Of a stretch of 64,000 nt of DNA, positions 1 to 26,596 are shown one piece after another. Both the position numbers and the translations under genes were made by a program. Origin of the DNA: Stropharia rugosoannulata (lineage: Eukaryota; Basidiomycota; Agaricomycetes; Agaricales; Strophariaceae); the NCBI GenBank assembly GCA_028532985.1, contig JANCIK010000005.1, positions 310,001 through 374,000 of the forward strand, in the 5' to 3' direction. Under the pieces are notes generated by a model, which had not been told where the DNA came from, ran no database searches, and worked only from the letters and a program-made list of their open reading frames with translations. The first letter of the stretch is position 1. Each line of letters starts with the position of its first letter.

Positions 1-2
1 TG

Positions 3-107
3 GGCATGCCATTCCATCTGCTGCCTTCTTCTGAGCGAATTGCAGCCGATGTTCAAGAAGTGGACCCTGATGCCGCGCTCATCGTAGATGACGTGTGCTC
101 TGATTAG
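3..107 (+). CDS. E1 acc-A, C-terminal end (partial)
   Basis: The frame entering the window reads GMPFHLLPSSE, then an acidic end VDPDAALIVDDVCSD, then TAG at 105-107. It matches the end of acc-A in element E3 (GMPFHNLPPSE ... VDPDAALVVDDISYD, ending at 12578 on the minus strand). The E2 counterpart also ends in an acidic stretch but is longer. Function unknown. It lies on the plus strand, opposite to the gag-pol of its element, 69 bp before acc-B. Most of the gene is outside the window. Confidence 0.75.
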   Translation, partial: GMPFHLLPSSERIAADVQEVDPDAALIVDDVCSD

Positions 108-134
108 GGTGGTCCGCTGCGCTGACCGTCTTCG

Positions 135-146
135 TATATAATATAA
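135..146 (+). promoter_or_regulatory. TATA box of E1 acc-B
   Basis: TATATAATATAA lies about 30-40 nt upstream of the ATG at 177, in the 69-bp gap after acc-A. A TATA box 30-100 nt before the ATG recurs for the accessory genes of all three elements, suggesting separate transcription units. Confidence 0.6.
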
Positions 147-176
147 CACCCTCTGTCTGTATTCGTATATGCCAAC

Positions 177-721
177 ATGCCCTCCTTGTCCGCTGAGAGT
201 AATCTCTTATTACGTGCCCATTCCGATCCTCGCATCCTTCGTCTCGATGCTTTGTCCCGTCGTCCGCTAAGCGACATTCCTCCTCACGATGTAGCCCGGG
301 TCTGCCGGATCTATGTAACTGCCCTTCACTACATTCTGGACTCCGCTGCGGAGGAACAGCTACCCATGAGTGTCTGTCTCCCGCTGCTTAACCGAGTTCA
401 AGATCACGCTGTAAGCCCATTCTCCGCTGACCATGCACTCCCACTGAGTAGTCCGCGCAGCGCGGCCTAGAGCTGACCGAGTCCACCTGTCATTCACCGC
501 TTCTTTCTCATCTCTGCGCTCAGCTGTATTACACCGAACTTGTGCTACGTCTGTGTGGTACCAACGACGCTGAGCGCTACGGCATCCTTAATCACACCGA
601 ACACTTTCAACGCCTCCATTATGCCGCCCAGCATTTTTACCAGGAGGACTTCTTCCCCGTCTGTCCCCTTTTCTCTTCCTTCTCCGCTGCGCTGAGACCC
701 AGATTATGTCAGGATGTTTGA
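177..721 (+). CDS. E1 acc-B, small accessory protein, antisense to gag-pol
   Basis: Three exons are inferred: 177-410, 524-658 and 713-721, giving 125 residues. Introns begin GTAAGC and GTCTGT and end CAG. The E3 copy (11960-12507, minus) has exactly the same exon lengths (234, 135 and 9 nt) and clear identity: MPSLSAESNLLLRAHSDP against MPSLNTESNLLQRARSDP, then RVCRIYVTALHYIL against RVCRIYIGALHFIL, and FFPDV at the end. The protein looks mostly helical, with no signal peptide or membrane segment. Family not recognised. Introns survive because this gene is antisense to the retrotransposition RNA, so the genomic transcript is not spliced here. The word CCGCTG occurs in exons and introns. Confidence 0.75.
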
Positions 722-1117
722 GGTATTGCGCCCCTTCCTTGGTTTACTCCGTAGGGTACCCTTGTTACAGTAACCAGAGTAAATGGCTATTACATGTGGT
801 GCCTCCTTTGCTATTTGAAATGACAAGTATCTAGTTAGGCACTATGTATTGTCGGTGCCAATACCTGATTCGGACATAATTTTTCTATATGCGGTAATCA
901 CACGATCAGCCCCCGCTGAGCGCTTTCAGCTAGGCGCGCCTCTCTGCTGGATCTCATTTCGTCTATCAACTGCTCCCGCTCTGCACCCCGTTTTATGCGA
1001 GCCTTGTCTCTACCTCCAGCGTTCATACCATAACTCCGCTGGAAGTCTGGTCCGCTGGGATGCCACATTCCTCGCTGCTGGCCGCCCTTCATTAGGTCCC
1101 CTGCGCTCTGCTGAGCC
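722..1117. other. Intergenic stretch between acc-B and acc-D of E1
   Basis: I see no convincing gene. Open frames here look like chance frames in word-rich sequence (several CCGCTG copies between 916 and 1110). It may hold the acc-B 3' end and the acc-D upstream control region. Confidence 0.4.
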
Positions 1118-1126
1118 TATATATAT
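1118..1126 (+). promoter_or_regulatory. TATA box of E1 acc-D
   Basis: TATATATAT lies about 36-44 nt before the acc-D ATG at 1162, the same geometry as the other accessory-gene promoters. Confidence 0.6.
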
Positions 1127-1161
1127 GCCCTACTCTCCTACCTTGAATCACTCAACCACTA

Positions 1162-2477
1162 ATGTCCAACGCACCCGCTCCGCTGTACAACTTTAGTAAT
1201 GTCAAGCACCAGCTGGCATTAATCCAAGATATCAGAGGCTTGGCTTCCGCCATGCCTTCCAACTATACCGGGAGCCTCGAGCTTCTGGCTATTGACTTAG
1301 TACGCACAACACTCAGCTGGTCCGCTGGGTCTTTTACTCCGCTGACCACTCGAACTTTTTTAGAACCGCTGGCGTGATCCCCACGGCGGCATTACTCGTA
1401 TCATTAATAACAGCGAGGCTGTTGATATTCTCAACGAGACGCGTGCCATCTACACCTCCTTAGAGGCGGATCACCACTTCCGCACTTTCTCTCCCGCTGC
1501 CAACGCTTTTATCACTCTGCATGAGCAAGTTTTAAAAGCGAAAGCCGCTGCTTCGCGCCAGCGCATGCATACTCCCACTGGACCAGTACGCTGTGTGCTT
1601 GCTGCCTCTCTTTATCCTTTTAACCGTCCGCTCAGCGCAACGTTCGCCTCCTCTCGCGCTCCGCTGCCGATCCTGAGACGGTCTCTGCCCCTGGAGGTAC
1701 CTCCTCCCCCGATTCTGATGACGACAAGGTGTGACTGACTTCCTTCACCCTTTTAGATATTACTAACATGCAGCTGTACCTCCTCCTTAAAAAGATGGCC
1801 CTCGATGACAAGATCGAGGCTGCCACTGAGGGCGGAGTACCTAGCCGCCAGAATACCCCAGAACCTAGTCCTTCGAAGAAGCGCTCAGCGCCTCCTCCCG
1901 ACACTCCTCGTCAGGTTCGTTCTGTTGCGTCTTCCCTCCCTCGTTACTTTCTTACTTCTATGTCAGCGGGAGCGCACTGAGGCCAGCGGACATCGCACTC
2001 GTGCGCTTGGCCGCGGCATGACACTCCGCTCCTCTGACAACCGGCGCTCTCCGCGCGACACACCGTTCCACGACATTTCCTCTAAGAAGGCCCGTCTCGG
2101 CGCTGACAGCGTTCCTACTTTCGCTGATTCTCCTTTCATTGTACAAGGTGCGCTCTTTGCCCTTATTCTTCTCTGTTGCGTCCGCTGAGCTCTTTCATTT
2201 TCTTTTAGGTACCAATCTTACTCTCTCGAACGACAAGGTCAATGCCTGTCTCGACGCTGCTACCAACCTCATTAAGGAACTGCTGAACACGGGGAACCCA
2301 TCCGAGCTCGTCACTCGCCGTCTCATCGGAGACTTGCAAGCTGAGATCATCTGTGACTTGCACAAGATTGACTTCATCCTAAAGTGCCGCGCTCTGCTCG
2401 TTAAAGAGTTAGAGACTTTACAGCGCAGCTTGGATTTGACAGGGACCAGCCCTGCTGAGGAGCCCGCGCCACAGTGA
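1162..2477 (+). CDS. E1 acc-D, intron-rich accessory protein, 347 residues
   Basis: Six exons join in frame with GT-AG introns: 1162-1299, 1364-1585, 1636-1728, 1774-1914, 1967-2147 and 2209-2477 (1044 nt). The third intron holds a perfect TACTAAC branch sequence. The N-terminus (MSNAPAPLYNFSNVKHQLAL) matches the acc-D stub of E3 at 11459-11350 (MATTHAPLFNFTNVKHQLSL). The middle is Ser/Pro/Arg-rich with basic clusters (PSKKRSAP, SSKKARL) that could be nuclear signals; the C-terminus is predicted helical. Family not recognised. It converges on integrase, with 120 bp between the two stop codons. Introns contain copies of the E1 word, and the acceptor at 1633-1635 lies inside a CCGCTCAGCG variant. 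Confidence 0.75.
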
Positions 2478-2597
2478 CGGCCTTCTTAATTACTCCGCTG
2501 AGCGCCTCAAAGTGGTCCTTAGCTAGTTTCTTTTGTACCTTTCTCCTTTAGTTTACCCAATATATTCTATTGTGGTCTCCTTTTCTACTTTGTGCCT
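2478..2597. other. Convergent spacer between acc-D and integrase of E1
   Basis: This 120-bp gap separates the acc-D stop (plus) from the integrase stop (minus). It contains TCCGCTGAGCGC near 2491 and T-rich tracts. Both transcripts must terminate here or overlap as sense-antisense pairs. Confidence 0.5.
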
Positions 2598-5330
2598 CTA
2601 AGCATCGGGCTCTGCCCACCCATCCTCATCATCATCTTCTTCGTCCGCTGAGACTTGGCCACTGCCTGAAACCACTCCTGGTTCATCAAAGATGTAGTCT
2701 TTAGGTATGGCCGGCTCGTAGTCTGGCGCTGACATCATCTTGTTGAGGTTCTCGCGCGTTTGATCAATGATATCGTCTAAGTCCGCTGGCAGCTTTAGCT
2801 GACGCCTGGCAAAGTAGGGTATTAAACGGAATGCTGCGACTTTGTCTTTCAGCACCGACCCATCCAGCTCAGCGACTAGATAAGCGCCTCCTTCCTTCCG
2901 CGCGATGACAATGTATGGTCCATTCCAGCGCGCCAACATTTTGCGATTTAAGCTGGACTCAATGCCAGAGTTACGCATCAGTACGACATCGCCAGGTTTG
3001 AACGCATAGTCCCTAATCTTAGCGGAGTGTTTTCGCTCAAACTCTCTGATAGCATCCCGCTTTATCTTTGACACCCGCTGACGCATTTCCTCCACTGTGT
3101 CCCTATGCTTGGCCAGCGCGCGCGCACGATACCCTACTAACTCCTCTGTGGTAAGTACGCGATCTGGTAACTTGACCAGCCACGTCGCCTCAGCGATGTC
3201 CAGCGGTAGTATCGGGTGCGCGCCAGTGACCATGAAGAAGGGTGAACACCCAAATCCGCGGCGCACTGTAACGCGGTCCGCCCACAGCACATGGTAGAAG
3301 AACTTGCTCCAGCGCTTATGTGCGCCCTCGGTACCACCACACGCTTTCCACAACATTTGTCTGATGTCCCAATGGGGCCGCTCTATCTTTCCGTTCGCCT
3401 GAGAGTTGTACGCTGAGATGGTAATCCCTGTAATACCATACTTCTTTTCTAAGTACTTGAGCGCTGCGCGGAACGGTCCACCGTTATCTGTGATTATCTC
3501 TCTAAGACATCCCCAGCGGCAGATAATATCCTCAAACATCCACTGCGCTATCGCCCTTGCATTCTCTTTCTTCAGCGGACGACCTTCCACCCATGAGCTC
3601 AGCGCACACCGTCCGTGCACTATGTAGTTATACCCATTTGAGGCAGGTGACATGTGCATAGTGTCCGCGTGTAGCTGCTGGAAGATGGAAGGCGTATGTG
3701 TCTCTGTCCGCGGAATCTGGATGATCGTCTTTTGCCTTAGCTGACACACATGGCATGTCTTGACATACCAGTAGACGTCCCGCTCCAGCTCTGGCCACCA
3801 GAAGCGCTCCATCAACAGTTTGCGCGTGGCGTATGCGCCTCTGTGCCCCAGACTGTCATGCGCGGCACGCAACATACGCGTCCGCTGAGCGGGATCAACT
3901 ACTAGTTTATGTGCCTCGTCCACTGAGCGCCGGTACATCCGCCCATCCTTGTCTAAGAAGAAGTTTCGTGCATTACGGATGAAATTCTGATACTCCCGCT
4001 CGCTCATATCCTTGGGTCTTGTACTGGGATTTTGCAGCCAATACCTTATCATTGGCAGCTTATCATCCATGTCCTTCCCCGCTGACGTTCGGTTCCGCTC
4101 ATCGTACTCTTCGTCTTCCAACTCATCTATCTTTGACTCTGGAATTACATGTGCCAGAACAAATTTCTCTAAGTACGCCCGCTGAGCGGGCGACACCTCC
4201 TCTGTCTGTAGGAAGTTATGCACTGTCCACTGTTCTTCTCTCGTCTCTTTTCTCGCCCGCTCCAGTTCCAACTGGAAACAGTCAACCGAATGTGCCTCCG
4301 TTCTAGCTGGCTCAGCGGGACCATCAAACAACTCGTTGAGGAATCCAGCTTGCAGATATCCTCCGCGGTCGTCAATCTGGTCCTTGAACTCTTCTAAACT
4401 CAGCGGATCGGGATCCTCTTCATACACTTTCTCGTACTCCAGCGGACCTACTTCTTGGTCATCATCCTCCGCTGAGTGCTCATACTCTTCATCTCCTGGT
4501 TGTCCTTCTCGTCGCGACAGGCCGTCCGCGCCAAACGTTTTGCCTGCTACATGCTTCAGCTGAAAGTGGTACATAAGGATCTTGTCTATCCAGCGGTTAA
4601 TGGTAGCGTTAGGTCCCATGCCCGGATTATCCAACATCCCTTTGAGATATTTGGCATCCGTCTCCACTACCAACTTCCGCGCTCCGATGAGCCAGTAATA
4701 GCACGCCTGCAGCGCTCGCAATAGCCCATATAGCTCTCTCTTTGGTTGTGAGAACCGCTGTTCCTCTCAGTTAACAGAATTGACCCAAAGCGGGCGTACA
4801 CGCTTCTTCGCGTTCAGCGGATCTTGCTGGTAGATATAAAATCCTACAGCGCGCCAAGACGTATCTACTGCCAGCGTGATCGGTCCTGGCAGTGTATAGT
4901 CCAGCGGCTTGACACAGTGTGCGTTCCGCGCTCCATCCTTCAGTGCATCCATACTGGCTTGCTGCGCTGGCCCCCACTCGAAGGGTTCTTTCCCACGCAA
5001 CAATCGCTGTATGTGCTCCGCTCGCTTAGCGTAGTCTGAGATGTAAATACGCAGGAGCCCCATCGTACCCATGAAGGCGCGCACATCGCTGACATTCTTA
5101 CACGGTCCCCAGTTGAGGATAGCGTGCACTTTATCTGGCGCTGGCTTTCGACCTTCGTAGGTACATAAGTGTCCCACCACCACAATCTCCGCTGCACATA
5201 ATATGGATTTCTTTCCGCTGAAAGTCCCTCCTGAGTACTTCATCCTCTGAACTATCCTATTCATGTTCTGCATGTGTTCCCATCTGACGCCGGATTCCGC
5301 TGTTCTCTGGAATCGTCTCGTACCCTCCAT
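2598..5330 (-). pseudogene. E1 pol: connection, RNase H and integrase, interrupted by TGA
   Basis: One frame runs from about 5330 to 2598, broken by an in-frame TGA at 4769-4767. Before it lie the RT connection and the start of RNase H (AVDTSWRAVGFYIYQQ). After it come RNase H (KRELYGLLRALQ, VETDAKYLKGML) and integrase. Integrase shows the H2C2 zinc region (AAHDSLGHR ... CHVCQ) and the catalytic D, D, E: LHADTMHM, IITDNGGPF, GKIERPHWDI. The end is acidic; no chromodomain is visible. Integrase would insert the cDNA into nuclear DNA. The frame differs from that of RT upstream, with the break near 5260-5330 just after IPENSGIRR by comparison with E2. The TGA could derive from TGG or CGA. Confidence 0.8.
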
Positions 5331-6528
5331 CCTCTAATTCATACCGTGTCTTCGGTCCGCGGATAGGCACATCGTCAATGTACGGCTCCGTGACGTCTGG
5401 TATTTCATCGCGGAGAATATAAGTCACATCTTCATGAAAGATGGGTACAGAATTGGTCCAGCCCATTGGTAAGGTTACTAAGCGGAGCGCACCAAACGGT
5501 GTCTGGAATGTTGTCAAGTCGCGAGACGACTCCGCTAAGAGTCGCTCGTCGTAGCCGACATACAAGTCCAGTATTCCGCCGCACGCACGCCCAGCGAAGT
5601 GTTCCGCCAGACTCTCCGCTGCCGGTGGCAATCCTGAGTGCGCGATGGTAACAGCGTTCAGCGGCTCTAAGCTATGTACGATTCTAAAGGACACCCCGTC
5701 TTTCTTTGTTACTGTGAACCAGCGCGACCGGTATGATGAACTGGATGGTTCATAAGTCCCAGCGCGGATCTTAGTAGCGATGAACTCGCACACCCGCTCG
5801 TACATGCCTGGCGGAATGGGTATATTTTTCAGTACCCACGGCGTATGTTCTACCGTTGGAATATCTACCGGCGGGAAGAAGTCTGTTCTAAACCTCCCCT
5901 TTTCCGTGTCATCCCACGCGAACGCCTCATTCTGCTGCATGAACACCTGATGTACTAGCTTGCGCTCCTCTGGCCACAGGAAGTCTCCTCCGTGCGCTTT
6001 ATCTATTTCCTCCTTCCGCTCCGCTGTGTACCTTCCCGTGGGTACAAACTCTGGTGGGTGTACCTTCAGCGGAGGCATTTCTTTCAGCGGATCCCCCTTT
6101 ATCTCTCTCACTATTCTGAATTTCTCTGGTAGCTCTTGGTAAACGGGTCTGACCTTGTCAGCGACCGGCTTATATTTCTTTCCTGCAAAGACGGTTACCG
6201 TAGTGGCATTTTTACCAGTTAACCGCTTTCTAGTTACTCCTTTCCGCGCTGACTGGCTTTGCTCGGGGTCCGCTGAGCGGAATTGCCCCCTCGGCTCGCC
6301 TTTCACCGTCTCTTTTTCTTGCCATTCTTTTTGCTGAAAGTACTTATAAATTGATGCTTTCTCTTTATCCTCCATCTTAGCCTCGTGCACAGCTTGAGCC
6401 ATGTACACATCTCTCAGCTCAGCGGAGCCAAATCTCCCTCCATTCTTTGGCAACGCATACCCCGCTATCTCTATCTTTCCAGTGCTATCATCCCGCTCGA
6501 ACATTAACGCGACCTCTCCTTGACGCAT
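5257..6528 (-). CDS. E1 reverse transcriptase
   Basis: RT-specific features: PIPPGMYERVCEF before the finger region, motif A ILDLYVGYDER, and the active-site box YIDDVPIRG (YxDD form). The start is taken at ATG 6528-6526, whose A is also the last base of the protease stop TGA (6530-6528), giving a TGATG overlap that suggests termination-reinitiation. The frame is open further upstream to 6627, but protease covers that. The C-terminal end (IPENSGIRR, then out of frame) aligns with E2 RT, where the frame continues, so a 1- or 2-base indel has broken the polyprotein. Confidence 0.8.
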   Translation of the reverse strand: MRQGEVALMFERDDSTGKIEIAGYALPKNGGRFGSAELRDVYMAQAVHEAKMEDKEKASIYKYFQQKEWQEKETVKGEPRGQFRSADPEQSQSARKGVTRKRLTGKNATTVTVFAGKKYKPVADKVRPVYQELPEKFRIVREIKGDPLKEMPPLKVHPPEFVPTGRYTAERKEEIDKAHGGDFLWPEERKLVHQVFMQQNEAFAWDDTEKGRFRTDFFPPVDIPTVEHTPWVLKNIPIPPGMYERVCEFIATKIRAGTYEPSSSSYRSRWFTVTKKDGVSFRIVHSLEPLNAVTIAHSGLPPAAESLAEHFAGRACGGILDLYVGYDERLLAESSRDLTTFQTPFGALRLVTLPMGWTNSVPIFHEDVTYILRDEIPDVTEPYIDDVPIRGPKTRYELEDGGYETIPENSGIRRQMGTHAEHE

Positions 6529-7796
6529 CAAATCATCGAGGACTGAAAATCCTGGTCGGCATGCGGCTCCTCCGCTGCGCTGGAGTCCTGCACATCTGGC
6601 TCCCGCTGAAGTATCTTCGGCCCGCACCCCCGATTATACGTAGGTACCACTAGCTTCCGCTGAGTGTTTGGGTCCGTCAGCGCAAGTTCCACTGTGCCAT
6701 CCCCGCGCGTCTTCACATTGCTTTCAGTGAGAATCTCAAACGGCTTCCCCAACAGAACCTCATAGGCGGCCGCGCTGATAACGTGTACTTGTAGGTACAC
6801 TGTCAGTCCGCTGAACACAAAAGGTACATTCCGCGCTAAACCCTTAGTCGACTCGACTTGTTTGTTAGCGCTCTGCATCCTAATGGTAAAATCAGGATCC
6901 CAGCTTAAGCCTAGTCGCTCCGCGGTATCTTGCGCCATGGACACTATTTGCGATCCGCTGTCGAGCAGAGTCTCTGCACGGCCCTTCCCATTAATCAGCG
7001 GAAATACTGCCTTGAGATGGTGCGATTCTCGTGCCACAATTAATCCCTTTGGCTTTTCGCCGGGTTGTAGCGTCGAGATGTATTGCTCATAAGGATCCTC
7101 CATGATTATTGTGCCGGGTTGTAAGCCACCGCGCTCCTCCGCGCAAGTGAGGAATGTCGCCGCTGGGAGCTCGTCCATTCGCATGAACTCTTCTTCTTCG
7201 TTCTCCTGCTTCAGCTGGGCGATGGCCTCGTCCATCTCCCACTCCTCTGCCTCATAATCCAGCTGCAAAACCCGCATGGTATTTACATCCAGCGGAACCT
7301 TGCGCGGTATGATACGCTCGACAAACTTCCTCCTAAACCCCGCTGTAGAGATCCCCAATAATTGTCCTTGAGTGATCTCTATTTTCTGGCTCTCTAAACG
7401 CTTAAGGACTTCGTCCGCTTGCGCCTCATCCTCAATGGCCGCACGCAACTTATACGCTGGCTTCCTCTTCTCTAGCACTGGCATCGGCGCCTCTCTTACA
7501 GGCGGCCGACTCTTTTCTGGTACGCACAGCGGAGGAACCATTACATACGGCACCTGCGCTGGCTTTTTATTCTCCCCAACTTTCTGCGCTGGCGCTGCAA
7601 AGCTTACTTTCTTTTTCTCCGCTCCGCTGGGCGCCTGTCTACTGATCTCCTCTATAAACTCTTCCTCATCTCCGCTGTCGACCTCCTCGATAGTCGTCCT
7701 TGGTGTACTTCTTACTGGCAGCTTCTTATTTACGTCTTCCGGGTTCTTGGGTTTATCAGAGCCGCTACGCTGAACTCTGCCCGCGCTTCCCTTCAT
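6528..7796 (-). CDS. E1 aspartic protease region
   Basis: A retroviral-type aspartic protease is marked by LLDSGSQIVSMAQDTAERLG (D-S-G active site) and VLLGKPFEILTESNV downstream. The N-terminal ~200 residues are charged and of low complexity. The ATG at 7796-7794 lies five bases after the gag stop (7804-7802), so gag and protease also look coupled by stop-start spacing. The end overlaps the RT start as TGATG. E2 has gag and protease fused in one frame, so the gag/protease break is specific to E1. Confidence 0.8.
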   Translation of the reverse strand: MKGSAGRVQRSGSDKPKNPEDVNKKLPVRSTPRTTIEEVDSGDEEEFIEEISRQAPSGAEKKKVSFAAPAQKVGENKKPAQVPYVMVPPLCVPEKSRPPVREAPMPVLEKRKPAYKLRAAIEDEAQADEVLKRLESQKIEITQGQLLGISTAGFRRKFVERIIPRKVPLDVNTMRVLQLDYEAEEWEMDEAIAQLKQENEEEEFMRMDELPAATFLTCAEERGGLQPGTIIMEDPYEQYISTLQPGEKPKGLIVARESHHLKAVFPLINGKGRAETLLDSGSQIVSMAQDTAERLGLSWDPDFTIRMQSANKQVESTKGLARNVPFVFSGLTVYLQVHVISAAAYEVLLGKPFEILTESNVKTRGDGTVELALTDPNTQRKLVVPTYNRGCGPKILQREPDVQDSSAAEEPHADQDFQSSMI

Positions 7797-7801
7797 CAGA
7801 C

Positions 7802-9703
7802 TCAATCGAAACCCTGGCTCAGCGCTGCATCCCGCTCCGCTTTCATGGTCGCGATCAGCTGCCGCTGTTCTTCTATCACCTCCTCTGGCGTCTTGACCGC
7901 TGAGCGCTCTTTTAAGAACGCCTTCCGACTGTCCAGCTCCTGTTGTAGTGTTCGAATTTGCTCCTCATAAGTCTCATCGAGAGAGCTGGCTGGTTGGTAG
8001 ACCTGGGCGTACACCATGCTCGGCGGAGTCCCCATGTACGCTGGGTGTACCGGCGCCATGTAGGTCTGCTGCGCTGGCGGCCCATTCTTCTTATGCCACT
8101 CATCTACACGTTCTTTGATAGCGCGCGAAGGATCCCAAGGTAATGACGATCCATCTGGGAGTTGGAGCCTTCCAGCTTCCGTGATGATTATCTTCCCAGC
8201 GGACAGATCCTGTTGTCTCACAATACACTCCGCTACGATGTGTCCCGTCTGTTTACAATAGAAGCACCTCGGTTCAGGTCGCTGTTGGTATTGAAACGGA
8301 CGCGGCGGCGCTCCGCTGAAACCTGGTCCTCCCATTGGCATCATAGGTACCGCTGGCTGGACTGGCGCAGCTACAGGCGCTGCCCGTGACGACATTACAT
8401 TGCGCAGAATATCTTCCAACTCCTTTTTATTGGTCTCCTTTGACTTCGACACCGTCTTTTCTACCAGCGACAACGTATCTTTAAACGACGCTACAAAGCC
8501 CTTCAAGTCCTCAATTTCCCCGCGCAGCGTATGCACCTCCGCTGACTCGGTCTTGATAGCAGGCACAGGCATGAGCCCATCCGCTGAGTCCCGACTCAAG
8601 CTGAGCGAAGTGCTAGGATTCTTGGTGCGCGCCATCTGCTCTGCCATTTCCGCCACCTGCTTCAGCGGATACATGTCCTCAGTCCGCGCTTCCACCTGAA
8701 TCCCCGCTGGCGCCGTAAAGGGTATATTGCGTTCTTTTAGGTACTTGTCAAACGACGTTCTCGTAGTGTAGTCGATATCCAGCTTGTTAAACAACCTCTC
8801 CCTGAACCCCGCTGTGAGACTGTTGGTGAAGTAGGTCACCAGCGTATGATTGGCCAGCAAGGTAGGCGCCTTGGTCAACTTCGCTGCCTCCGCTAAGAAC
8901 GCCCGCTTGAAGTCCAACAACACCTGGAGGTCTTCCTCCGAGATGCGCTGGTTCTCCTTGCACAGCTTCTTTAGGCGCGCGATGGACCCCGTCTGAATAC
9001 TGATCACCTCAGGATATTCATTGAGGATCATCTTCTTCAGCTCAGCGTAACTCTTGGTGTCATAGCCTGGTAAATTCTTCCACTCCTCCGCTGTCTGCAT
9101 GGGTACATATTTGATTACATAGCCTCTCCTCTCATCATCCTCCGTCACCTCAGCGCGCTTGAACCAGTCCTCTAAGTCCTCGAAGTAGCGTGGGAGTTCA
9201 TCACGCTCAGCGGAGGGGTCGAAGCTTGGTGCACCGCGCGCTCCGCGCACAGGCATAGACGTTTCCTTAGGCATGGTGATAATTTCAGGGGGCGGTTCGT
9301 GTTCACTTGTGGAAAGGTCTGACAAGTCCCCTTCAAATATATCTCTGGCCACGCGCTCGGCCTCACTCTCACTATTATCTGTCGTCCGCTGAGCGGATCT
9401 CTTAGCAGTCTCGAATACTTCCGAAAACGGAGGAGGTGTGTCTTGAGTAGCTTGGCTATCTGATGAGCCAAATGGTGCAACTTCAAGCGTAATGTCTCCG
9501 TCCGCTGAGCGGTCGTCTGTTTCAATTCCAGAAGGCGGTCCCCAGAATCCGCTGGGCCCGTCCTCCCGCTCTGAGTCACTCTCTGTAAGCGCTCCTGGTA
9601 CGCGCTGAGCAAGATCCTGCGTTTCTATCTGTAGCCACGCCTCTTCCCTTGCTTTCCTCTTCGCTTTTCTATCTCGAGTAGGTGTAATCACCAATGGTTC
9701 CAC
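7802..9703 (-). CDS. E1 gag
   Basis: About 630 residues. An acidic low-complexity N-terminus is followed by a helical capsid-like region (LPRYFEDLEDWFKRAEV ... WKNLPGYDTKSYAELKK) and one zinc knuckle, CFYCKQTGHIVAEC (CCHC spacing 2-4-4). Gag forms the particle and binds the RNA. The frame is open upstream to a TAG near 9871 without an in-frame ATG, so the true start is unclear: position 9703 is a GTG. A later ATG (ITMPKETSMPVRG), a splice or a mutated start are alternatives. The E1 word occurs repeatedly in both orientations inside the coding sequence. Confidence 0.8.
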   Translation of the reverse strand: MEPLVITPTRDRKAKRKAREEAWLQIETQDLAQRVPGALTESDSEREDGPSGFWGPPSGIETDDRSADGDITLEVAPFGSSDSQATQDTPPPFSEVFETAKRSAQRTTDNSESEAERVARDIFEGDLSDLSTSEHEPPPEIITMPKETSMPVRGARGAPSFDPSAERDELPRYFEDLEDWFKRAEVTEDDERRGYVIKYVPMQTAEEWKNLPGYDTKSYAELKKMILNEYPEVISIQTGSIARLKKLCKENQRISEEDLQVLLDFKRAFLAEAAKLTKAPTLLANHTLVTYFTNSLTAGFRERLFNKLDIDYTTRTSFDKYLKERNIPFTAPAGIQVEARTEDMYPLKQVAEMAEQMARTKNPSTSLSLSRDSADGLMPVPAIKTESAEVHTLRGEIEDLKGFVASFKDTLSLVEKTVSKSKETNKKELEDILRNVMSSRAAPVAAPVQPAVPMMPMGGPGFSGAPPRPFQYQQRPEPRCFYCKQTGHIVAECIVRQQDLSAGKIIITEAGRLQLPDGSSLPWDPSRAIKERVDEWHKKNGPPAQQTYMAPVHPAYMGTPPSMVYAQVYQPASSLDETYEEQIRTLQQELDSRKAFLKERSAVKTPEEVIEEQRQLIATMKAERDAALSQGFD

Positions 9704-9916
9704 AAGCTCAGCGTCTTTCTTGCTCCTAGTCGATCGCCCGCTCGGAGGTAGTATACCAAATGATGGTCTAGCCTCCGCTGGTTCTGCTAGCGACGACGGT
9801 GCAGGAAATTTGCCTCGCTTGTTACTCGTCCCCGTTGTATTTGAAATTTTTGAAATGTTTTGTAATAGGCGCTAAGCCGTGGTCCCCGAAACACTATATG
9901 AGATTTCTGAACCTTC

Positions 9917-9934: not shown

Positions 9935-9936
9935 GA

Positions 9937-11459: not shown

Positions 11460-11520
11460 GGTAGTGGTTGAGAACAGTAGGAATAGAGTGCGATGCGCTC
11501 ATACAGAGACGGCGAGCGTC

Positions 11521-18600: not shown

Positions 18601-19088
18601 ATGATCCATTGAACTAGACGGGCTTCATCCGGTGTCAAGAAGCCATCTTCATTTATGTTCCAGGCATCCATTCGTTCTTTTGTATAGCGTATTCCTGGTT
18701 CAATATGGTCCACTTTAAAAGGTAATGGTTTCATATTAGCCAGAGGATCCGATGGAATTCTTCTAATAACACGATATTCTTCGGGAAGCGTAGTTGACAC
18801 AGGAAACGTCCGTCTCGCCACAGGTTTATATTTTTTCCTGGCTTTTATTATTAGTGCTCTTTGTTGAAAAGAGTAAGCATAAGTCTTCTGTAAACATTGG
18901 CCGATAAATCTGGCCGAAACTTCAAAATTAAAATTAGTAGGGTATATTTCGTGATATGATGATCCTCTTTCATCATCTATTCTTGCTGCGAATAAGGGAG
19001 TTATAAATCGTCCAAATGATAGTGCTGAAGGAATACCCTTCTTGTGCTGTTCATGTCGTTTCTCGTGCACTATATTTAACATGAACAT
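15609..19088 (-). pseudogene. E2 pol: reverse transcriptase, RNase H, integrase, one in-frame TGA
   Basis: ATG 19088 opens a frame through RT (motif A AMFDLFVGFD, active site FVDDVPVKG), RNase H (IIMEVDSSNIAVGF, KIELYGLFCSLRAYR, VRTDASYLKGML) and integrase (H2C2 with TCDICQRQ; D, D, E in VHADTFFM, IIVTDNGTPW, NGLIEKRHLDV). A TGA at 16154-16152 interrupts integrase after the catalytic core; the same frame resumes (FVLWAERVTV) to the stop at 15609. E1 has YHVLWADRVTV at that point, so the TGA replaces a sense codon, perhaps TGG. The ATG lies 14 nt after the gag-protease stop, in another frame. Confidence 0.85.
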
Positions 19089-19102
19089 CTTTCCCGACCG
19101 TG

Positions 19103-21085
19103 TTAATTCAGTCGGGATTCTGGAAAATCCGCTGACTCTTTTTCGGAAACCTTATTCCTGGGCTGAGTTGGAATAGTAACCACCTTCTGCGTGTTGGGGC
19201 AAGTCAAAGTGATTTCCTGGTCGCCATTTGTATAATCCCTAGTAGTGCATCCAGTATACACAAAGAACGGTCGTCCTATCAGAACTTGAAAAGGGGCTTT
19301 ATCCACGACATGTACTTGAAAATAGAGTTCAAGGCTTCCAATAGTGATTTTAAGGTTTTTGCACATTCCATCCGTTTGTGATAATTCCGTGTTGGCAGAC
19401 TCCATATATATTTTCCTTTCTGGGTTTATATTGTGAGACAGTTTCCTCCATATGCGCTTGTCCATTGCCATGATTTCCGATCCTTGGTCCAAAACACATT
19501 CTGCTGTGAATTCACCATTTAGCAATGCAGGTATCACCCTGAGTTTCATAAGGGGAGAAGCCGTCAAAAGGACTCTATCTGATGGCCCATTTTCCGAAGC
19601 AAATTGTAGCACATAAGACCCTTCATTTTCTTCGCCATGGACATAGCTAACTGTCGGAATTCTCTTTGGTGTAGTTGTTTCCTTGAAATATTTCCGAAGT
19701 TCTCCAGAAATAGCCAACAACTCTCTTTGAGAAATAGTAATTTCTGCATCCAAAGATTTTGATATGACTTTCTTAAGAAGGTCCAAATTTTCCGCTCCTG
19801 AGGTGAATCTATACTGGGGTCCTTTAGCCGGTTCAAATCTTACATGTGCTTCTGGTATTGTCTTTTCCGATTTCCTTTCGGCAATCACGACTTCAGGGAC
19901 TTTTTCATAAGCAGATGAGTTTTTTCCTGGTCCAGGTTTGTCTTGGGGCGAAGACCTTGTCTTCAGATAAACCTCACCGATTTCTTCGTCGACTTCTTCG
20001 AGTTTACTGGAAGAATTAAACAAGGTTTCAGCCGTAGTACAGGAAAACATCATTGTGGTAGCTGGCGACAGGTGAGGGGGTGCATCTCGAGCACGTTGTA
20101 GTTTGAGAATGTTTTCGATCCTTTCTTTTATTGTTCCAGTTCCATTGATCCAGTCGCCGTTAGCCATTGTGAATCTACCATTCGGTCCTTGTTTGATGAT
20201 TCCCTTGTTTATAAATTCATCCGGCAAGTTGCAAGACCTCATAATATGATTAATGTCTCCGCAAAACAAGCAACCAGGGGCGTAGCGCGGAGTGGAACGA
20301 TACATAGGTCTTTCTTGCGTCGGAAAAGATGTATTTGGTTGGCCTTGCATAAACATCTTTATTGACCCTAATTCCGATGTCATTTTCCTTAGCATGAGCT
20401 CAAGAGCAGTTTCTTCGGTTTTCGTCCGTTCACGAGGTGTGTCTTCAAGGCCATACCTGTCAGAATAAGCGTTATCTTGAAGAACATATCGAGCCGCTTG
20501 ATTAACTTGAAGATAATCATGAACTAGGCCCGGTTTCCGCTTTGGGTCTTCAGCCGTTAATTGAGTAAGAACCTTCGCCCTGAATTCTTTTGGGAGACCT
20601 AGAACATAGTTTCTGTTGATGTCGTCTCTTGATGATAATTGCTCCTTCTCCAGATAAGTAGCTATAATCATGAATTCACAATGATATTCTGCTAGAAGTT
20701 CTTGATTATCCATGGGTTTGCTCGAAAACTTCTGTATTAATTTATGCAGGTCGTTGACTGAGTATTTGTAGAGCGAATCCAACCCAGGGAAATATTCCAG
20801 TAATATTTGTTTATTCTCCTTCCAGGATTTGTTTTCATCTAGAATATTCTTCCATGTTTCGTGGTATCGGTAATCCACATACCACAGGGTTTTTGTAATC
20901 CGCGTGATATCCGATGTGTCTCCCCTGTCTTTGCATAATTCCTCGATGTCCTCTAGGTATCAATGTAAAGGAGTAGTTGGTCCTGTAAACGATGGAGCAT
21001 CTTTTGAGTTGTGGTTTGGGTAAGGCTTGACTTTGGGCGCCACAGTTTGAACTTCAAAAGGGTTAGCTTCGATTCCGTGATCCAT
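19103..21085 (-). CDS. E2 gag-protease
   Basis: From ATG 21085 (MDHGIEANPFEVQTV) the frame meets TGA at 20962-20960 after 41 codons, then runs open to 19103. The TGA lies within CATTGATACCTAG, which looks like a branch point and 3' splice site, so an intron may remove it; otherwise it is a nonsense codon. Capsid-like helical region, then one zinc knuckle CLFCGDINHIMRSC. Protease has CVLDQGSEIMAM, a D-Q-G where most retroelement proteases have D-S/T-G, and VLIGRPFFVYTG downstream. Pol starts 14 nt after the TAA. Confidence 0.8.
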
Positions 21086-21254
21086 TTCCGATATATGGCT
21101 GAGTACTGAAGATATTTGGCTTCCTGACGGTGTCGGTCTTTTCCTTCTTCTCTTGATGGGCGCTTCAGGATGTTGTAGGGGTATAGCAAATTCTGCAGCA
21201 AGTTGACGAGTTATCCGACAGTCTGGAACAGACGGATCTATTGTGAACTGTAGA

Positions 21255-21272
21255 CCCTCGCGGTGGGCTCCA
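21255..21272 (-). other. E2 primer binding site
   Basis: TGGAGCCCACCGCGAGGG on the minus strand, identical to that of E1, three bases from the LTR. Both families use the same primer tRNA. Confidence 0.85.
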
Positions 21273-21275
21273 CGT

Positions 21276-22228
21276 TGTGAGGTGCGTAGTTGGGTAGGAC
21301 AGGTCTGAAAAGCCTGTCTCTATAGTTCACAATGTGCGAAGGCAACGTGTGTACAACGATAGCACGTTGAAAAGGTTTTACTTGTTTTATAACAAGGAGC
21401 TTCCAGTGTACGAGGTTTAAACAATGGTTTCCGATGTGAACTGGTATGAAGTGTGTAGGTAGAATTTAACCCTGAAGGAAGCTGGAGAAGTACAGAGATA
21501 TTCTACTCCTTAAATACCTGTCTGGTTGCCATGCCCAGATCGTTCCATATACATCCACGAAGATCCGACCGCCCGTGCTGTCTTTATCTCGTCGGAAACC
21601 ATGCTGCACTACAGCATGCTTCATATCTTGGCCACAAATTTCCTTATCTTCGGAAACCAAGCCCAAGCACAAGAAATCTTCCTGTGGCCGGATCATCTCC
21701 ATGTTCACCCCTAAACATACATCTCCTCCAACCCTCTCTCCACACCTATGTCCCTTGTGTTTGTGTTGAGATTCTTCTTCTCTCTGCTACCACACGCCTG
21801 CATGTCGTCGGAAACCCTTGCATATCGTCGGAATCCGTTGCCATATTTGTCCCAGGTCGTATGTATGAGTATTTCCATGTGATTGACTCCCTTGTGGGTC
21901 CATAGTTACATCAGATTGTTAATATTGATCTGATGTTGTCAGCATCAGAAGTCCAATATTGCTCTGATGCTGTTATCTTTCTTGATCTGCCATTGAGTTG
22001 TAATAACATCTTGAGTCTTCCTTGTGCTTGTCTCTTGTTTCATCATGTACATATTTCATATCTTGCATCTTCATATCTTAGACTTCATATTTCGTGCTTC
22101 TTCTTGTTCTTTCAGTTTCCGATAGTAGTTTCCGATCGTCATGGCGGATATGTCGCTTCTTGTGTATCTATGTTCTGAACCTTATGGTTTTTCATGTTTT
22201 CACGAGGGGCCAGCCCCAGCCCCTCACA
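21276..22228 (-). repeat. E2 5' LTR
   Basis: 953 bp, partner of 12916-13868. It ends CCTCACA at 22228, followed by the 4-bp target duplication GCGC and then acc-A of E3. Confidence 0.9.
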
Positions 22229-22410
22229 GCGCGCACGAGGGACTGAGCAGATTGTAGAGGAAAGTGAAAAGGGCTGTTGTTGCAGTCCTCTGCGAGCTCC
22301 GCATGAACGGCGAGTTGTCTCAATATAGCAGTAAACTGGCGAGCGACTGCAGTGCGCTGATATCGGAGAGCCATGGAAGGCAGTAAAGAAACTGTCAACT
22401 GGGGACAGTT

Positions 22411-22440
22411 GAATTTATAGTGGGGGGGGAGAGATGACCT
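22411..22440 (-). promoter_or_regulatory. E3 acc-A promoter with an internal polypurine-like tract
   Basis: On the minus strand CTATAAATTC (22420-22411) lies ~37 nt before the acc-A ATG at 22374. On the plus strand the adjoining bases are TAGTGGGGGGGGAGAGATGACC, nearly the E3 polypurine tract plus LTR start (TAGTGGGGGGGAGATGACAG at 25366). The arrangement copies that of E2, where acc-A directly abuts the 3' LTR. Confidence 0.55.
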
Positions 22441-22768
22441 AGCCAATCAGGGATAAATCTAGGAGCTTAAGGAGATGGGCCATAGAGATCAGGAACTCAG
22501 GACAGGAGCAGAAAGTGATGGGCACATACAAGCAAGGGCGCATCATTCATGTGCACGCATCACACTTGTACTCGCTCAGGGAATATTACAGAAAATAAAG
22601 CGCTTAGGATCACACAGGAGGGAGGCAAAAGATAAATAATTCCAAAGCATATTTAGGCTAGACAATAGCTATTCTACATATGCTAGATAGAATAGTAAGG
22701 GAGAGCACAAGAAAGGGAGACATAAGAAGAGAAAACAAGCGCCAAAAATGCGCGCCCCGCAGCAAGAC

Positions 22769-24835
22769 TTAGGCCTCCATGTTAACGACATCTTCTTCCT
22801 CAGCGGAGGCCTCAGGGCTCGAGTCGTTAACGACAACGGGAGAGGACTTGTAGGAGCGGACGGGAGCTTTGCCTTTTCCTTTGCCTTTACCCTTGCCTTT
22901 GGACGTCGATTTCGGGACTTTAGAAGCCTTAGAAGGCTGGGGAGCAGGGACAAAGGAAGAAGGATCTTGACGCGGATGGTTGGGACGGTAGAAAGAAGAG
23001 GACGGCGGCGCGGACTCGATAGGGTGATCAGGATCCAACGGCTGACAGAGCGCATCGTAGGAGGCGCAGAGCTGCTCGAGATCCATAGACCGGAGGGCGT
23101 CGAAGGTCTCACAATCAGTGAAGCGAGAACCAATAATGACATTGGTAGGCAAAGTCACAGCCATAGCCTGCGCGAGCTGCACAAGCTGGATAAGTTCAGC
23201 AAAATAAAGGCGCTGGAGGCCTCGACGAGCCTCCTCCGCAGCGCGCTTGCTGACTGAAGGCTTCCAGACGGGCGAAAGAGGCATGTAGTTCTGAAAAGAA
23301 AAAGGATAAGTAAGGAGGAAAAGAAGAAAAAGGATATGCGCGCACCACGGGGAGAAGTGCGGTACCAACCGGAGGTACCTTCTAATGCGCTGTCAAGCTC
23401 AGCGCCAGTCATAGTATGCAGGCAGGGGCCCTGACCCCCTAGGCGGCAACTTGCGCACTTCCTGCCAGGACCGCGAAGGATACAGAAGTGTTTGAGGGAA
23501 GGAGAGTCGGAAGACTCGTCCTGGGGGCGTCAGCAAAGGGAGCACGTAAAGCCGGGCTAAGGAAGGAAATAATAGATAAATAAAAGGCTAAAGAGGAGAA
23601 AATGAAGAGACAAACTATAATTGCCTCGCGCAGCGCTTCTTCAGGCGGGAGTTGGGCCATGCTTATGGCGTCGGGCAGAGGCTCGCCAGCCAAGGCCAGG
23701 GATGCATGGTAGACCCCAGGAAGAAGATTGTAGATTGGACAAGTCGAGCGATATTGGGACTTAGAAGAATCGACGCCCTTCAGGCGTGGCAGCTCTTCGA
23801 GGCCGCTGGGAATGGCCTCTAGGGGGACGACCTTTGTACGCGATGCACGCACCTTGGGAACGTGAGGAGAGGCGCGCACGGTGGAAGGCCCCGCTACAGC
23901 CTCTTGAATCACTGAATAAAATTAAAATTAAAAAGGTGTCAGAGAAGGTAGAGGAGGAAATAAGGTACCAGTACCAGCGGTTTTGCACGAACGTTTGGCG
24001 AGGGGAACTGGAGGGACAGGCAAAGTCGAAATAGGGACGAGCGCGGCGCGCTTGCGCTTGGAGGGCGCAGCAGGTGCGGAATCGTCAATGCGAGGGGATA
24101 CGGGGTCTGGAGATGGAGGAGGCGGGGTTGGAGAAGGCGCTGCGCACTTGCGTTTTGCAGGTACGGCGGGAGGAGGCTCGACGGGCATGGGGTCGGGAGA
24201 AGGCGGAGGCGGGGTTGGCAAAGGAGATGCGCGCCGCTCTTCGGAGGGAGGGACGGGCGGTACTTCAATAATCCTTCCACTCTCTGTGGACTCGCCCATC
24301 TCCACATCGGTGCTGGTCGATGCCAGCGGCGCATACTCTAGGCGAGGCTCAGGCTCGCTTCCAGGGGACCAAGAAGGCGGGAACGCGGTGAGAAATGCGC
24401 GCTTGTAAGAGGGCAGCTAGAAGAGAATGAGCGCAGCGCAGCAACACAAAAAGACTGACTACATACCGGCTCAAGGTCAGACTTGGTGTACCACACAGTG
24501 CGCTGCGTAGGATCGGAGGACGCCCAACCGAACACGGGGTCGTTGTTCTCGAAGGCGAGCAAGGAAAGGAGAAGCACGAGTTCGCGTGTGCCCGCATGGT
24601 GAGATGCATCGATGGGGAAGGCGAGAAGGTGGTGCTCGAGGGCGAACCCAAATTGTTCTCGCACCAAGTGGAACTGCGCGGTTTCGTCTTGAGACAGGCT
24701 GTCGCGCGCACTCAAATCCTCCAATGTATCATATCATGCGAGCACCGGTCGGAGGCGGTGGAAATGATCGGATATCTCGCCCTCGCGGATGGAGGTCTTC
24801 TGCTTGCGATTTAAGCTGCGTTTGTGGAAAGCCAT
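22769..24835 (-). pseudogene. E3 acc-C, multi-exon accessory gene next to the 3' LTR
   Basis: ATG 24835 (MAFHKRSLNRKQKTS) is followed by TGA at 24736-24734, after which the frame continues (LEDLSARDSLSQDETAQ). Later exons encode a proline-rich region with basic clusters (KRKCAAP, SKRKRAAL, AKRSCK), a conserved-looking domain (YRSTCPIYNLLPGVYHASLA), a cysteine cluster RKCASCRLGGQGPCLH (near 23418-23460) and a C-terminus with repeated GK pairs, ending at 22769. Several introns are supported by GT-AG and frame, but the joint before 23310 is not solved. Basic clusters and the Cys/His cluster suggest a nuclear, possibly DNA-binding protein. The early TGA suggests the copy is dead unless spliced. 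An E1-type sequence CTCAGCGGA occurs near 22800. Confidence 0.5.
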
Positions 24836-24930
24836 GAAGTCACGGTGAGATGCCAGAATGAAATAGGAAAGGAAAGCAGCAGGAAGTGAAGGATGATGGG
24901 AGAGGCGGGCTGAAAAGGATTCAAGGAGGT

Positions 24931-24937
24931 TTATATA
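24931..24937 (-). promoter_or_regulatory. TATA box of E3 acc-C
   Basis: CTTATATAAACC on the minus strand, about 96 nt before the ATG at 24835. The ~430 bp from here to the LTR hold several GCGCGC words but no gene. Confidence 0.5.
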
Positions 24938-25365
24938 AGTTCGGAGGGATAGCGAAGGAAAATTCTGGAGCAGGGGAGAAGCCAGACGGCGAGGAGCGCA
25001 TGTCGAATAAGCTTTCCGGCGATGTACTAGAACAGCGAGCCGCAGAAGGAAGGCACAGCAGGGCCCAAAACAGGAAAAGGGAGGGTCTGACTAGGACGAT
25101 GACTCAGGGCTGACCAGAAAATAGTAATGAGGAGACCATCATCGGCGACAGGTCAGCAAGTAATGTAAAGGGGCGGTGCGCGCATCAGCGCGCAAGTGGC
25201 GTCTTGAAGACGTTTAGTCTGAAAAGGGCTCCGTGGGGATGCCAAAGAGGGAATCAAGAAACCAAATGGAGAGATGACTCAGAACGGTGCTTCAGGGAAA
25301 CTAGTAGACGGTTACTACGCAGGCGAGGCGCGCATCTGAAATTGACTGAGGACAGTCAAGATTTT

Positions 25366-25378
25366 AGTGGGGGGGAGA
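25366..25378 (+). other. E3 polypurine tract
   Basis: TAGTGGGGGGGAGA-type run immediately before the LTR start TGACAGGG at 25379. Confidence 0.7.
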
Positions 25379-26596
25379 TGACAGGGCTGCTTTTTGGCTA
25401 GGGGTGTAAACAGTTAGAAGGTCCGTTAGTGGGATAGCTGCGCGTGGGAAACACAGAGAGACTAGAGTTGAGCCTGCCTCATAGTCTATAGCTATCAGCA
25501 CGCGAGCATCATGACTACAAGCGCCTGCGCGCACCGTATCGCGAGAAGGATTGGTCAGCGAGCTGCACAGTCTAGAGTGCATAGTTTGGCCGTCTGTGCG
25601 AGCGATCAGGAAAGCGTAGAACGGTTAAGCACCAGCAAAGAGCGGTGTGAGTACAGCTGAGCGGATACCAAAGGCGGTGTGAAGGGCTGTGCGCGTATCT
25701 CATATGCGCGCATTGCAAAGGCAGAATTTGTCTAAGTCCACACATCATGTGACCGTGGCGGTGCGCATCAAAATAGACGCGCAAAAACCCGAGGGAACAA
25801 ACGACATGTGCGCAGTGAATGCCAAGGGATCAGGACACTCGAAGGGAAGCCCGGATGCGATGCGCGGACCTTTGGCCGCGTGTTGCTAGTATTTACTTTA
25901 CCTTATTATTAGTACACATGCGTGCATTGCATATAAACCTGTATCCTTGTCTATAGTAATTTAAGCAATTGTCTACCCACTAGATCTGTGTGCTGGGTTC
26001 TGTCCCAGGCTGTCAGCAGGCTGTGTTTAGCTTTTGTTAGGGTTTTAACTGTGAAGTATTTGTGAATCATAGGAGTTTTGGATAGCTTCTGGCCACCGGG
26101 TCATTTGGAGAGCTCAGTGAGGAGTCAGTACAACCGTGTACGGAAACTCGCACTGCAGTGTTTAGACTGTGAGACTGCACTGCCGGGTGAAAGACTTTGG
26201 AGAGTCTTGGATTTGTTGGACTTTGGAGAGTCCGCGCATCGTACGAGGTCACCGGACCCGGAAGTGCGCGCAGCGAAGCCGTTCGCTAAAAACAACTTAT
26301 TTCATTTATCATTTTGCTTTGCACACGCCACTAGCAACCGGGCTCTATCCGAGATTTACTAGAATTAAACCCCTCCTTACAAACGAACTTGCAGGCACTA
26401 CTTGCTGTTACAAAGACTAGAGGACACGAGGTGCGCGCATCGCACGCCCAGAACGGGAACCAGAGCAGAGCAAAGATTATACTAGCCGTTTAGTTGAGGG
26501 TGTTCGCTCGATCTAAAGGATAGGATCTCGCTCCGCTGGGTGTGTGTGTGTGTTGTGTTTCGCAATTTCGAGTCTAGCTACGCAGTAGACCTCTCA
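25379..26596 (+). repeat. E3 3' LTR, 1218 bp
   Basis: It starts TGACAGGGCTGC after the polypurine tract and ends GACCTCTCA. The inverted E1 LTR (9937-11349) has matching ends and shared internal blocks, but CCGCTG is nearly absent (about one copy near 26533). GCGCGC words are present instead (25526, 25707, 26272, 26432 regions). Confidence 0.8.

Follow-up and report, generated by a model that had tools for sequence, protein, structure and literature searches.

Each of three nested Ty3 retrotransposons in the fungus Stropharia rugosoannulata is saturated with a short DNA word specific to its own family. The elements, E1, E2 and E3, fill the first 26.6 kb of the window, a stretch of 64,000 nucleotides (C5:310001-374000; contig JANCIK010000005.1 of assembly GCA_028532985.1) from a genome of 48 Mb in 20 contigs. 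Positions refer to the window, and negative coordinates lie to the left of it. As an earlier note on this DNA had proposed, the three Ty3 elements are nested: E1 and E2 are both inserted into the outer element E3. E1 and E3 are sister families with 77% DNA identity over 7.7 kb of gag-pol. The words in these long terminal repeat (LTR) retrotransposons are a real, family-specific signal, from which we infer a reader and a purpose.

The host was represented by 18 ten-kb segments, arbitrarily picked from the same genome and unannotated. E1 contains 116 copies of CCGCTG in 14.7 kb (7.7 expected at the host rate), E2 contains 30 copies of TTTCCG in 8.4 kb (3.6 expected) and E3 contains 80 copies of TGCGCG in 14.6 kb (8.7 expected). 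TGCGCGCA is present 19 times in E3 (0.3 expected) and is absent from E1 and E2. The density of CCGCTG is 7.9 per kb in E1, 1.2 in E3, 0.2 in E2 and 0.5 in the host, and TTTCCG reaches 3.6 per kb in E2 versus 0.4-0.8 elsewhere. The best 6-mer scores are 172.6 (E1), 89.5 (E3) and 29.6 (E2), with the 18 host segments at or below 19.1; the best 8-mer scores are 126.4, 106.3 and 28.0, respectively, with host segments at or below 18.2. The claim that each element is saturated with its own word is borne out by these k-mer counts, which exceed the host segments and a Markov null. The E1 LTR, for which at least 20 CCGCTG had been reported, has 22 CCGCTG/CAGCGG (20 + 2) in 9928-11349. All word positions listed in the earlier note for the three elements were found again except 4179, where the word is present as an 11/12 match (CCGCTGAGCGG without the leading T). 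GCGCGC, also put forward as an E3 word, is frequent in E3 (45 in 14.6 kb) but not specific to it: there are 21 copies in 14.7 kb of E1, none in E2 and 68 in 180 kb of host DNA.

The words follow their families through the genome. TCCGCTGAGCGG has 213 exact matches versus 4 for the reversed word, and TGCGCGCATC has 815 versus 49. Of the E1 words, 100 were listed; 81 of them have an E1 match no more than 15 kb away and 3 are near E3 only. Ten of the 19 listed words away from E1 matches form five pairs with a spacing of 763-768 bp, which may be solo E1 LTRs. Among 95 E3 words listed on contig C1, 55 are near an E3 match and none is near E1 only; some of the remaining 40 fall into groups reminiscent of LTRs, into a 9.15-kb series and into a 201-bp series.

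Codon usage does not account for the enrichment. Gag-pol was shuffled synonymously 1000 times with protein and codon usage preserved. CCGCTG was observed 55 times in E1 gag-pol (shuffle mean 10.3, maximum 21), TGCGCG 39 times in gag-pol of the E3 copy L035 (mean 12.5, maximum 23) and TTTCCG 17 times in E2 gag-pol (mean 4.6, maximum 11). The enrichment thus survives correction for codon use and composition, as no shuffle of the 1000 matches the observed counts. Nor are the words equally frequent in the wrong element, since the counts of the other families' words in gag-pol stay inside the range of their shuffles.

All regions of E1 are dense in words, including the LTRs (15.5 per kb), gag-pol (7.6), antisense exons (5.8) and introns and spacers (7.8), as had been claimed. 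The use of both orientations holds only in part: the strand counts of CCGCTG in E1 are 88:28 (p 2e-8) and those of TTTCCGAT in the E2 unit are 12:0 (p 5e-4). In E1 the split is 20:2 in the LTRs, 37:19 in gag-pol, 20:3 in gene B and 9:3 in gene A. The same strand is favored in all of these regions, and the preference is therefore a property of the element, irrespective of which strand is coding. Of the palindromy that had been described, the clear case is TGCGCGCA in E3. The E1 word is an imperfect, strand-biased dyad and TTTCCGAT of E2 is one-stranded. Three of the four pairs in TCCGCTGA are symmetric, and the symmetric variants CCGCGG (11) and CAGCTG (13) are far rarer in E1 than CCGCTG (116). 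A tidy dyad model of the E1 word was set aside, because the near-symmetric matrices are partly an artefact of reading sites on both strands. The tandem arrays found in those portions of E1-E3 that lie within the window are short, and a few of them have word-like units. Helical phasing is weak (resultant 0.08-0.17 at periods 10-11). The evenness of spacing is marginal in E1 and E2 (573/20000 and 626/20000 random placements as even, respectively), and the tested E3 piece is unevenly spaced (18236/20000).

Conservation of the words was assessed between copies. The window copy of E1 was compared with a second copy over four stretches (L002, L003, L004 and L012) and with a third over 1 kb (L008). 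In E3, four copies yielded four pairwise comparisons, in which sites recur. A word was counted if it was present in either copy and was kept if it was intact in both; control words were matched in letter content and CpG number. In E1, CCGCTG is kept at 99/114 sites versus 199/312 for controls (p 1e-6). Its neighbors TCCGCT (92/110 versus 183/267, p 0.002) and TCAGCG (72/88 versus 167/234, p 0.04) are also kept more often. In E3 this applies to TGCGCG (106/149 versus 67/119, p 0.008) and GTGCGC (64/88 versus 257/419, p 0.03). Non-CpG letters of the E1 words differ at 3/446 positions, compared with 306/8739 outside words. As these letters are kept, the E1 result cannot be due only to CpG being shielded from decay. 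The corresponding values for E3 (4/251 versus 398/14601) and E2 (1/181 versus 80/6790) point in the same direction and are not significant. Between the two LTRs of one E3 element no word conservation is seen (CpG differences 7/22 inside and 13/64 outside words), as expected after insertion. The view that words are kept across copies is thus upheld for E1, less clear for E3 and not significant for E2. Judged from these copies, the case for selection on the words is good for E1, partial for E3 and slight for E2.

The E1 words also coincide with changes in the protein. Amino acids differ from E3 in 43/144 E1-word codons, in 147/916 nearby and 139/1354 far control codons and in 69/483 codons of composition-matched words. 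In the reverse transcriptase (RT)-integrase open reading frame (ORF), outgroup proteins were compared at 17 codons where an E1 word goes with an altered amino acid. Among scorable codons the outgroup sides with E3 and E1 in ratios of 4:3, 3:6, 3:6 and 4:6 for 2, 6, 20 and 60 outgroups, respectively. The E1 words thus either sit at amino-acid changes or have driven them.

Because E1 and E3 are alignable, the words of the two sister families can be compared at homologous places. Position matrices were trained outside gag-pol only and then applied to homologous gag-pol sites. At 5 bits, 19 sites coincide versus 6.6 by shifting (0/1099 shifts reach this value); at 6 bits there are 11 versus 4.5 (7/1099 shifts), and at 7 and 5 bits 14 versus 4.8 (0/1099 shifts). 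E3's own motif is present at 13 E1 sites at 6 bits, where 6.6 are expected from divergence, and in reverse E1's own motif is present at 20 E3 sites versus 8.7 (0/400 simulations in both cases). At 5 bits, 2/400 and 1/400 simulations reach the observed values. One example is E1 TCCGCTCAGCGGA, which faces E3 TCCGCGCAGCGCA. These results support a switch of words between the two families at some of the homologous places. Only 13 to 18 of the 87 E1 sites are matched in E3, and the majority of words therefore seem specific to a single family. By eye, most E1 words in the LTRs lie in stretches that are diverged from or absent in E3, and well-conserved E1/E3 LTR stretches hold few words.

Candidates for a protein that reads the words are found among antisense reading frames, which lie between pol and the 3' LTR in E1, E2 and E3. 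In our splice model, gene A of E1 (outside the window) has four exons and an open spliced frame of 634 amino acids. Its exon 3 has six cysteines common to E1 and E3, spaced in E1 as CX2C-X14-C ... C-X2-C-X7-C. Identity between the two families is 80-88% for gag, protease and integrase, 60-82% (amino acids) for gene B exons and 35-59% for the alignable parts of gene A exons. In 31 other E1 copies the final exon of gene B is 92-98% identical. Beside E1 gene B the cysteine exon is 73-100% identical in 28/28 matches (85-100% in 24), whereas beside E3 gene B it is 30-47% identical in 44 matches, and there is no crossover with the E1 group. Exon-3 matches adjoining neither gene B number 20/92. Exon 1 of gene A (-2892 to -2199; L009:7108-7800) was compared with the window copy in those rows of at least 47% identity that lie beside an E1 gene-B match. 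It is 53-64% identical in 22/26 rows and 47, 86, 96 and 99% identical in the remaining four, a pattern as expected of very fast or modular evolution within E1. A cysteine cluster that tracks the word, combined with a hypervariable N-terminus, would fit a DNA reader with an arms-race domain. Exon 4 was dropped as a word reader, as its identity among E1 copies ranges from 55 to 100%. The accessory ORF of E2 has 34 matches in the genome (74-100% identity), all of them E2 itself. CCGCTGAC words were observed near the 3' ends of some antisense-gene introns, e.g. -1864 to -1810, and further predicted E1 introns with these words lie around -190 and 420; there the words match the branch-point consensus CTGAC.

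Tentatively, the words are best explained as sites of a DNA-binding protein that the element itself encodes and that is specific to its family, with gene A as the likeliest reader and a purpose like that of VANC, the anti-silencing protein of plant VANDAL transposons. The words would be spread over the whole element so that its own protein coats and recognizes the DNA copies of the element. Recognition would most likely occur through the six-cysteine, zinc-cluster-like exon of gene A; gene B is an alternative reader. The bound reader may keep or make the chromatin of the element active against host silencing and leave other families untouched. Gene A would then bind the words and act as an oligomer, and its binding would counter silencing. 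Among E3 copies (L035-L037 versus L009 and L015), CpG columns outside words vary at 173/705 positions and other columns at 238/4591, which makes CpG columns about 5 times more variable and suggests CpG methylation in the host. This signature of CpG decay, together with the CpG present in all three words, fits a VANC-like setting. The self-recognition code proposed in the earlier note thus agrees with the family-specific words, which look as sites of a co-evolving DNA-binding factor would, while its other parts, protein binding and reversal of silencing, stay conjectural. A more far-reaching form is doubtful: an element-length self-recognition code of fungal Ty3 elements, with a family word of 6-8 letters written into LTRs, genes and introns at an accepted cost in amino acids and read by a bipartite antisense protein. 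Here the cysteine cluster would track the word, the N-terminal exon would be in an arms race with the host, and a shift in specificity would rewrite the word and give rise to a new family.

Several observations weigh against an element-encoded reader and against selection on all three words. The strand bias of CCGCTG and TTTCCGAT is unexpected for a symmetric dimer. Gene A has no match at the Pfam cut-off (DUF3526 is far below it with 13.9 of 25 bits) and no relative was found in the PDB or in sequence databases; the cysteine pattern alone points to a DNA-binding role. Gene A diverges between E1 and E3 over its whole length and the cysteine exon is not singled out. Two of the E1 copies with a cysteine exon of 73% identity, those covered by the list of exact words, have the exact word at the places of the window copy, so divergence of this exon does not always change the word. 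No homologue of gene A was found in E2, which would require another or an unrecognizable reader; the E2 accessory ORF looks unrelated and is found only in E2, so that a reader common to the three families would be conjectural. In E3, GCGCAG is kept no more often than controls (57/88 versus 364/581), and the wrong word CCGCTG is kept in E3 copies (24/32 versus 397/637, p 0.10) as often as TGCGCG. E3-word codons have no excess of amino-acid changes (14/89). In E2, neither TTTCCG (28/33 versus 60/78) nor TTCCGA (25/31 versus 143/205) is kept significantly more often. The E1 evidence comes from few copies (the window copy versus two) and the E3 sites are recurrent. Finally, a 3.3-kb slice of E2 scores 11.5, hardly over the best host slice (11.2).

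Alternatively, the words could be sites for host transcription factors or chromatin proteins, gathered as enhancers or shields and read by no protein of the element. The LTRs, which are densest in words, are reminiscent of enhancers, and E1 TCCGCTGA is one letter off TCCGCGGA, a yeast Pdr3 site listed in the available excerpt of PMC2536678. One host would, however, have to account for three words in three families, two of which are sisters. Coding DNA is as word-dense as introns and spacers, the rarity of the words in host segments would leave a host factor few host targets, and the antisense genes of the elements diverge along with the word. This explanation is rather unlikely. Lower still is the probability that the words act in RNA, in packaging, in binding of Gag or another RNA-binding protein or in escape from RNA silencing. 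Such a role would account for the strand bias, which for CCGCTG is constant along the element. It agrees less well with the enrichment of CCGCTG on the minority strand (28 in 14.7 kb versus about 4 per strand), with the palindromic and hence strand-neutral E3 word and with words inside predicted introns of the antisense genes.

We consider it improbable, slightly more so than an action in RNA, that composition, codon use, CpG decay or gene conversion made and kept the words. They do contain CpG, which evolves fast here, and protection or mutation bias could shape them; the excess of amino-acid changes in E1-word codons could partly mark places where the protein is tolerant, and with CpG considered separately the words of E3 and E2 show no clear conservation. 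This origin nevertheless fails the synonymous shuffles, the Markov and host nulls, the E1 control matched for CpG and composition and the non-CpG test, and sister families of similar composition have different words. The words as integration landing sites, where CpG words would make elements safe targets for their kin, are the least probable explanation. It draws on the E2 LTR ends, for which 100 of 101 matches were listed (25 at internal LTR starts, 75 at outer junctions). The listed outer junctions represent 48 distinct 5-letter flanks, of which some belong to duplicated copies. Every one of the 75 has CG (49), CA (14) or TG (12) at the center of the 4-bp target duplication, versus 37% expected for 5-mers passing the search, which points to integration at CpG. 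The target duplications read are CCGG for E1 (2/2) and CCGT for E3 (1/1). E2 of the window sits inside an E3 word, and E2 in L037 is inserted after TTGCGC. CG alone would suffice for these targets, though, leaving the 8-letter words, the family differences and the conservation unexplained, and the insertion of E1 into E3 is not at an E3 word.

The coordinates of the nest are given in the table. All three elements are of the Ty3/gypsy type, judged by the domain content of the polymerase: an LTR pair, a short target duplication, a protease and the order RT-RNase H-integrase were found, with the E2 RT match below the Pfam cut-off and the RNase H and integrase domains of E3 seen in relatives of its polymerase. 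E1 gag-pol has protease and integrase zinc-domain matches above the cut-off and RNase H below; E2 gag-pol has RNase H, integrase zinc-domain and DUF4100 matches and RT below the cut-off. Copy numbers are lower bounds, and E1 and E3 were classed by identity to the last gene-B exon: there are at least 32 matches for E1 (92-100% identity), at least 57 for E3 (72-80%) and at least 25 for E2 that cover at least 90% of the polymerase probe. The polymerase frame of the E1 window copy (2598-9703) is split into several ORFs; several other E1 copies have open polymerase frames of about 1346 codons. Gene A of the E3 window copy has two in-frame stops within the aligned pieces. DUF4100 and HET matches and short introns suggest a genome of fungal type.

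Coordinates of the three nested elements and their parts (window positions; TSD, target-site duplication)
Feature	Position	Strand	Remarks
Element ends read	E2 12912-12916, 22228-22232; E1 -4732, 11349; E3 -14618, 26596		
E1, whole element	C5:305268-321349 (about -4732 to 11349)		left end about 4.7 kb outside the window
E1, part inside window	1..11349	-	TSD CCGG; CCGCTG/CAGCGG throughout
E1 5' LTR	9937..11349	-	TG...CA, 1413 bp; repeat first aligned as 9928-11349; LTR pair 99.8% alike
E1 gag-pol region	2598..9703	-	several ORFs in window copy; 54 words, 7.6/kb
E1 gene-B block	175..2474	+	multi-exon, antisense to gag-pol; last exon about 2172-2474; exon limits estimated from reading frames
E1 gene A	-2892 to about -817		outside window
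E2	12916..22228	-	TSD GCGC; TTTCCG/TTCCGA throughout; inside E3 word TGCGCGCA
E2 3' LTR	12916..13868	-	second LTR 21276-22228; 99.9% alike
E2 gag-pol ORFs	16152-19088 and 19103-20878 (region 16152..20878)	-	Pfam matches
E2 antisense accessory ORF	13781..14671	+	296 amino acids; no Pfam match
E3, whole element	-14618 to 26596		interrupted by E1 and E2
E3 middle fragment	11350..12912	+	between E1 and E2 insertions; GCGCGC/TGCGCGCA words; E3 gene-B parts on minus strand
E3 right part	22229..26596	+	3' LTR 25379-26596; TSD CCGT
E3 gene A pieces	22925..24835	-	tblastn with E1 gene A; exon homologues 24835-24581, 23807-23616, 23553-23353, 23245-22925
Tandem arrays with word-like units	10343; 13439 (LTR twin 21799); 14799		

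Elsewhere in the window, a word-rich stretch at 37-47 kb was rejected as a case of element-wide saturation, as it consists of local 10-bp tandem arrays. Arrays of TGCGTGAG at 10-, 21- and 31-bp steps lie at 39482-39680, 45270-45715 and 46128-46290, and 35 copies of GTGCGTGA lie within 36-49 kb. These arrays lie close to an ORF with an HMG box and to a weak PHD match and are unlike E1-E3. GCGCGC peaks at the window end because it is contained in the unit of a 140-bp satellite array (62296-63596). A direct duplication of 472 bp (91% identical) at 27800-28744, near Tf2-1-type SH3 and integrase matches at 30541-32130, is perhaps another LTR element.

Further families of the same clade are present in the genome (58-74% RT identity with E3 and E2 RT probes). 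One 3.3-kb slice each of F4, F5a, F5b and F6 was sampled, together with six host slices. The best 6-mer scores are 8.8, 5.5, 6.9 and 6.4, respectively, with host slices at or below 11.2; the same slice scores 31.0 in E1 and 28.0 in E3. No word of E1 or E3 strength was found in these four slices, which, as the E2 slice is near host level, does not extend to words of E2 strength. A gene A exon-4 match lies within 12 kb at 3/22 loci of these families, and the three matches were assigned to neighboring E1 or E3 copies. DNA of relatives outside this genome was not found in viral_contigs or genome_contigs.

If the element-encoded reader is real, these elements would be a second, independent case of self-recognition in another kingdom and another class of element, and such codes would arise repeatedly. 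They would provide a natural system for following joint change in a DNA-binding protein and its dozens of sites. Coding DNA of a retrotransposon would be selected for words, which would distort tests of the dN/dS type.

Among known DNA-binding proteins, Zn2Cys6 zinc clusters have the classical pattern CX2CX6CX5-12CX2CX6-8C. Pdr1 and Pdr3 are regulators of this type, with TCCGCGGA as their site. The likeness consists of E1 TCCGCTGA, one letter from TCCGCGGA, and of the six cysteines of gene A common to E1 and E3. The first loop of gene A is, however, longer than in that pattern, and no Pfam match to a zinc cluster was obtained.

Sequence-specific self-recognition by a transposon is established for the plant VANDALs, according to the available excerpts (Hosaka et al. 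2017, PMC5735166; Sasaki et al. 2023, PMC10398659), and VANC proteins act on VANDAL chromatin against silencing (PMC5735166). As excerpted, related VANDAL families are each rich in a short motif of their own, the element encodes a protein in which some regions are conserved and others vary strongly, and motif and protein diverge together. Here, too, a short family-specific motif was found that is concentrated in the element and differs between related families. VANDALs are Mutator-like DNA transposons of Arabidopsis, whereas E1-E3 have LTR pairs and retroelement domains and no Mutator-type transposase was found. In those excerpts VANDAL motifs are noncoding tandem repeats; here the words are dispersed through coding exons, introns and LTRs and are strand-biased. 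Binding and loss of methylation have been shown for VANC. No VANC homologue was found in searches of gene A in Pfam and databases, of the E2 ORF in Pfam and of gene B in its own genome, with no direct comparison to VANC sequences made. The VANDAL parallel drawn in the earlier note thus stands as a functional likeness only: for gene A no relative was found in databases, and most of the words run through coding exons instead of forming tandem arrays. A search of the open-license literature for fungal LTR elements with anti-silencing, antisense genes or family motifs gave, among the entries listed, no title or opening of an abstract that reports such a system. In plants, the available text on Retand LTR retrotransposons (PMC11963269) describes TRP28 ORFs that lie in antisense orientation between pol and the 3' LTR. 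These plant elements differ from E1-E3 in the TRP28 domain and in that the same text describes no element-wide dispersed word (PMC11963269). Like E1-E3, they are gypsy elements with a long pol-to-LTR region, antisense genes that are suggested to bind DNA and family-specific repeats (PMC11963269).

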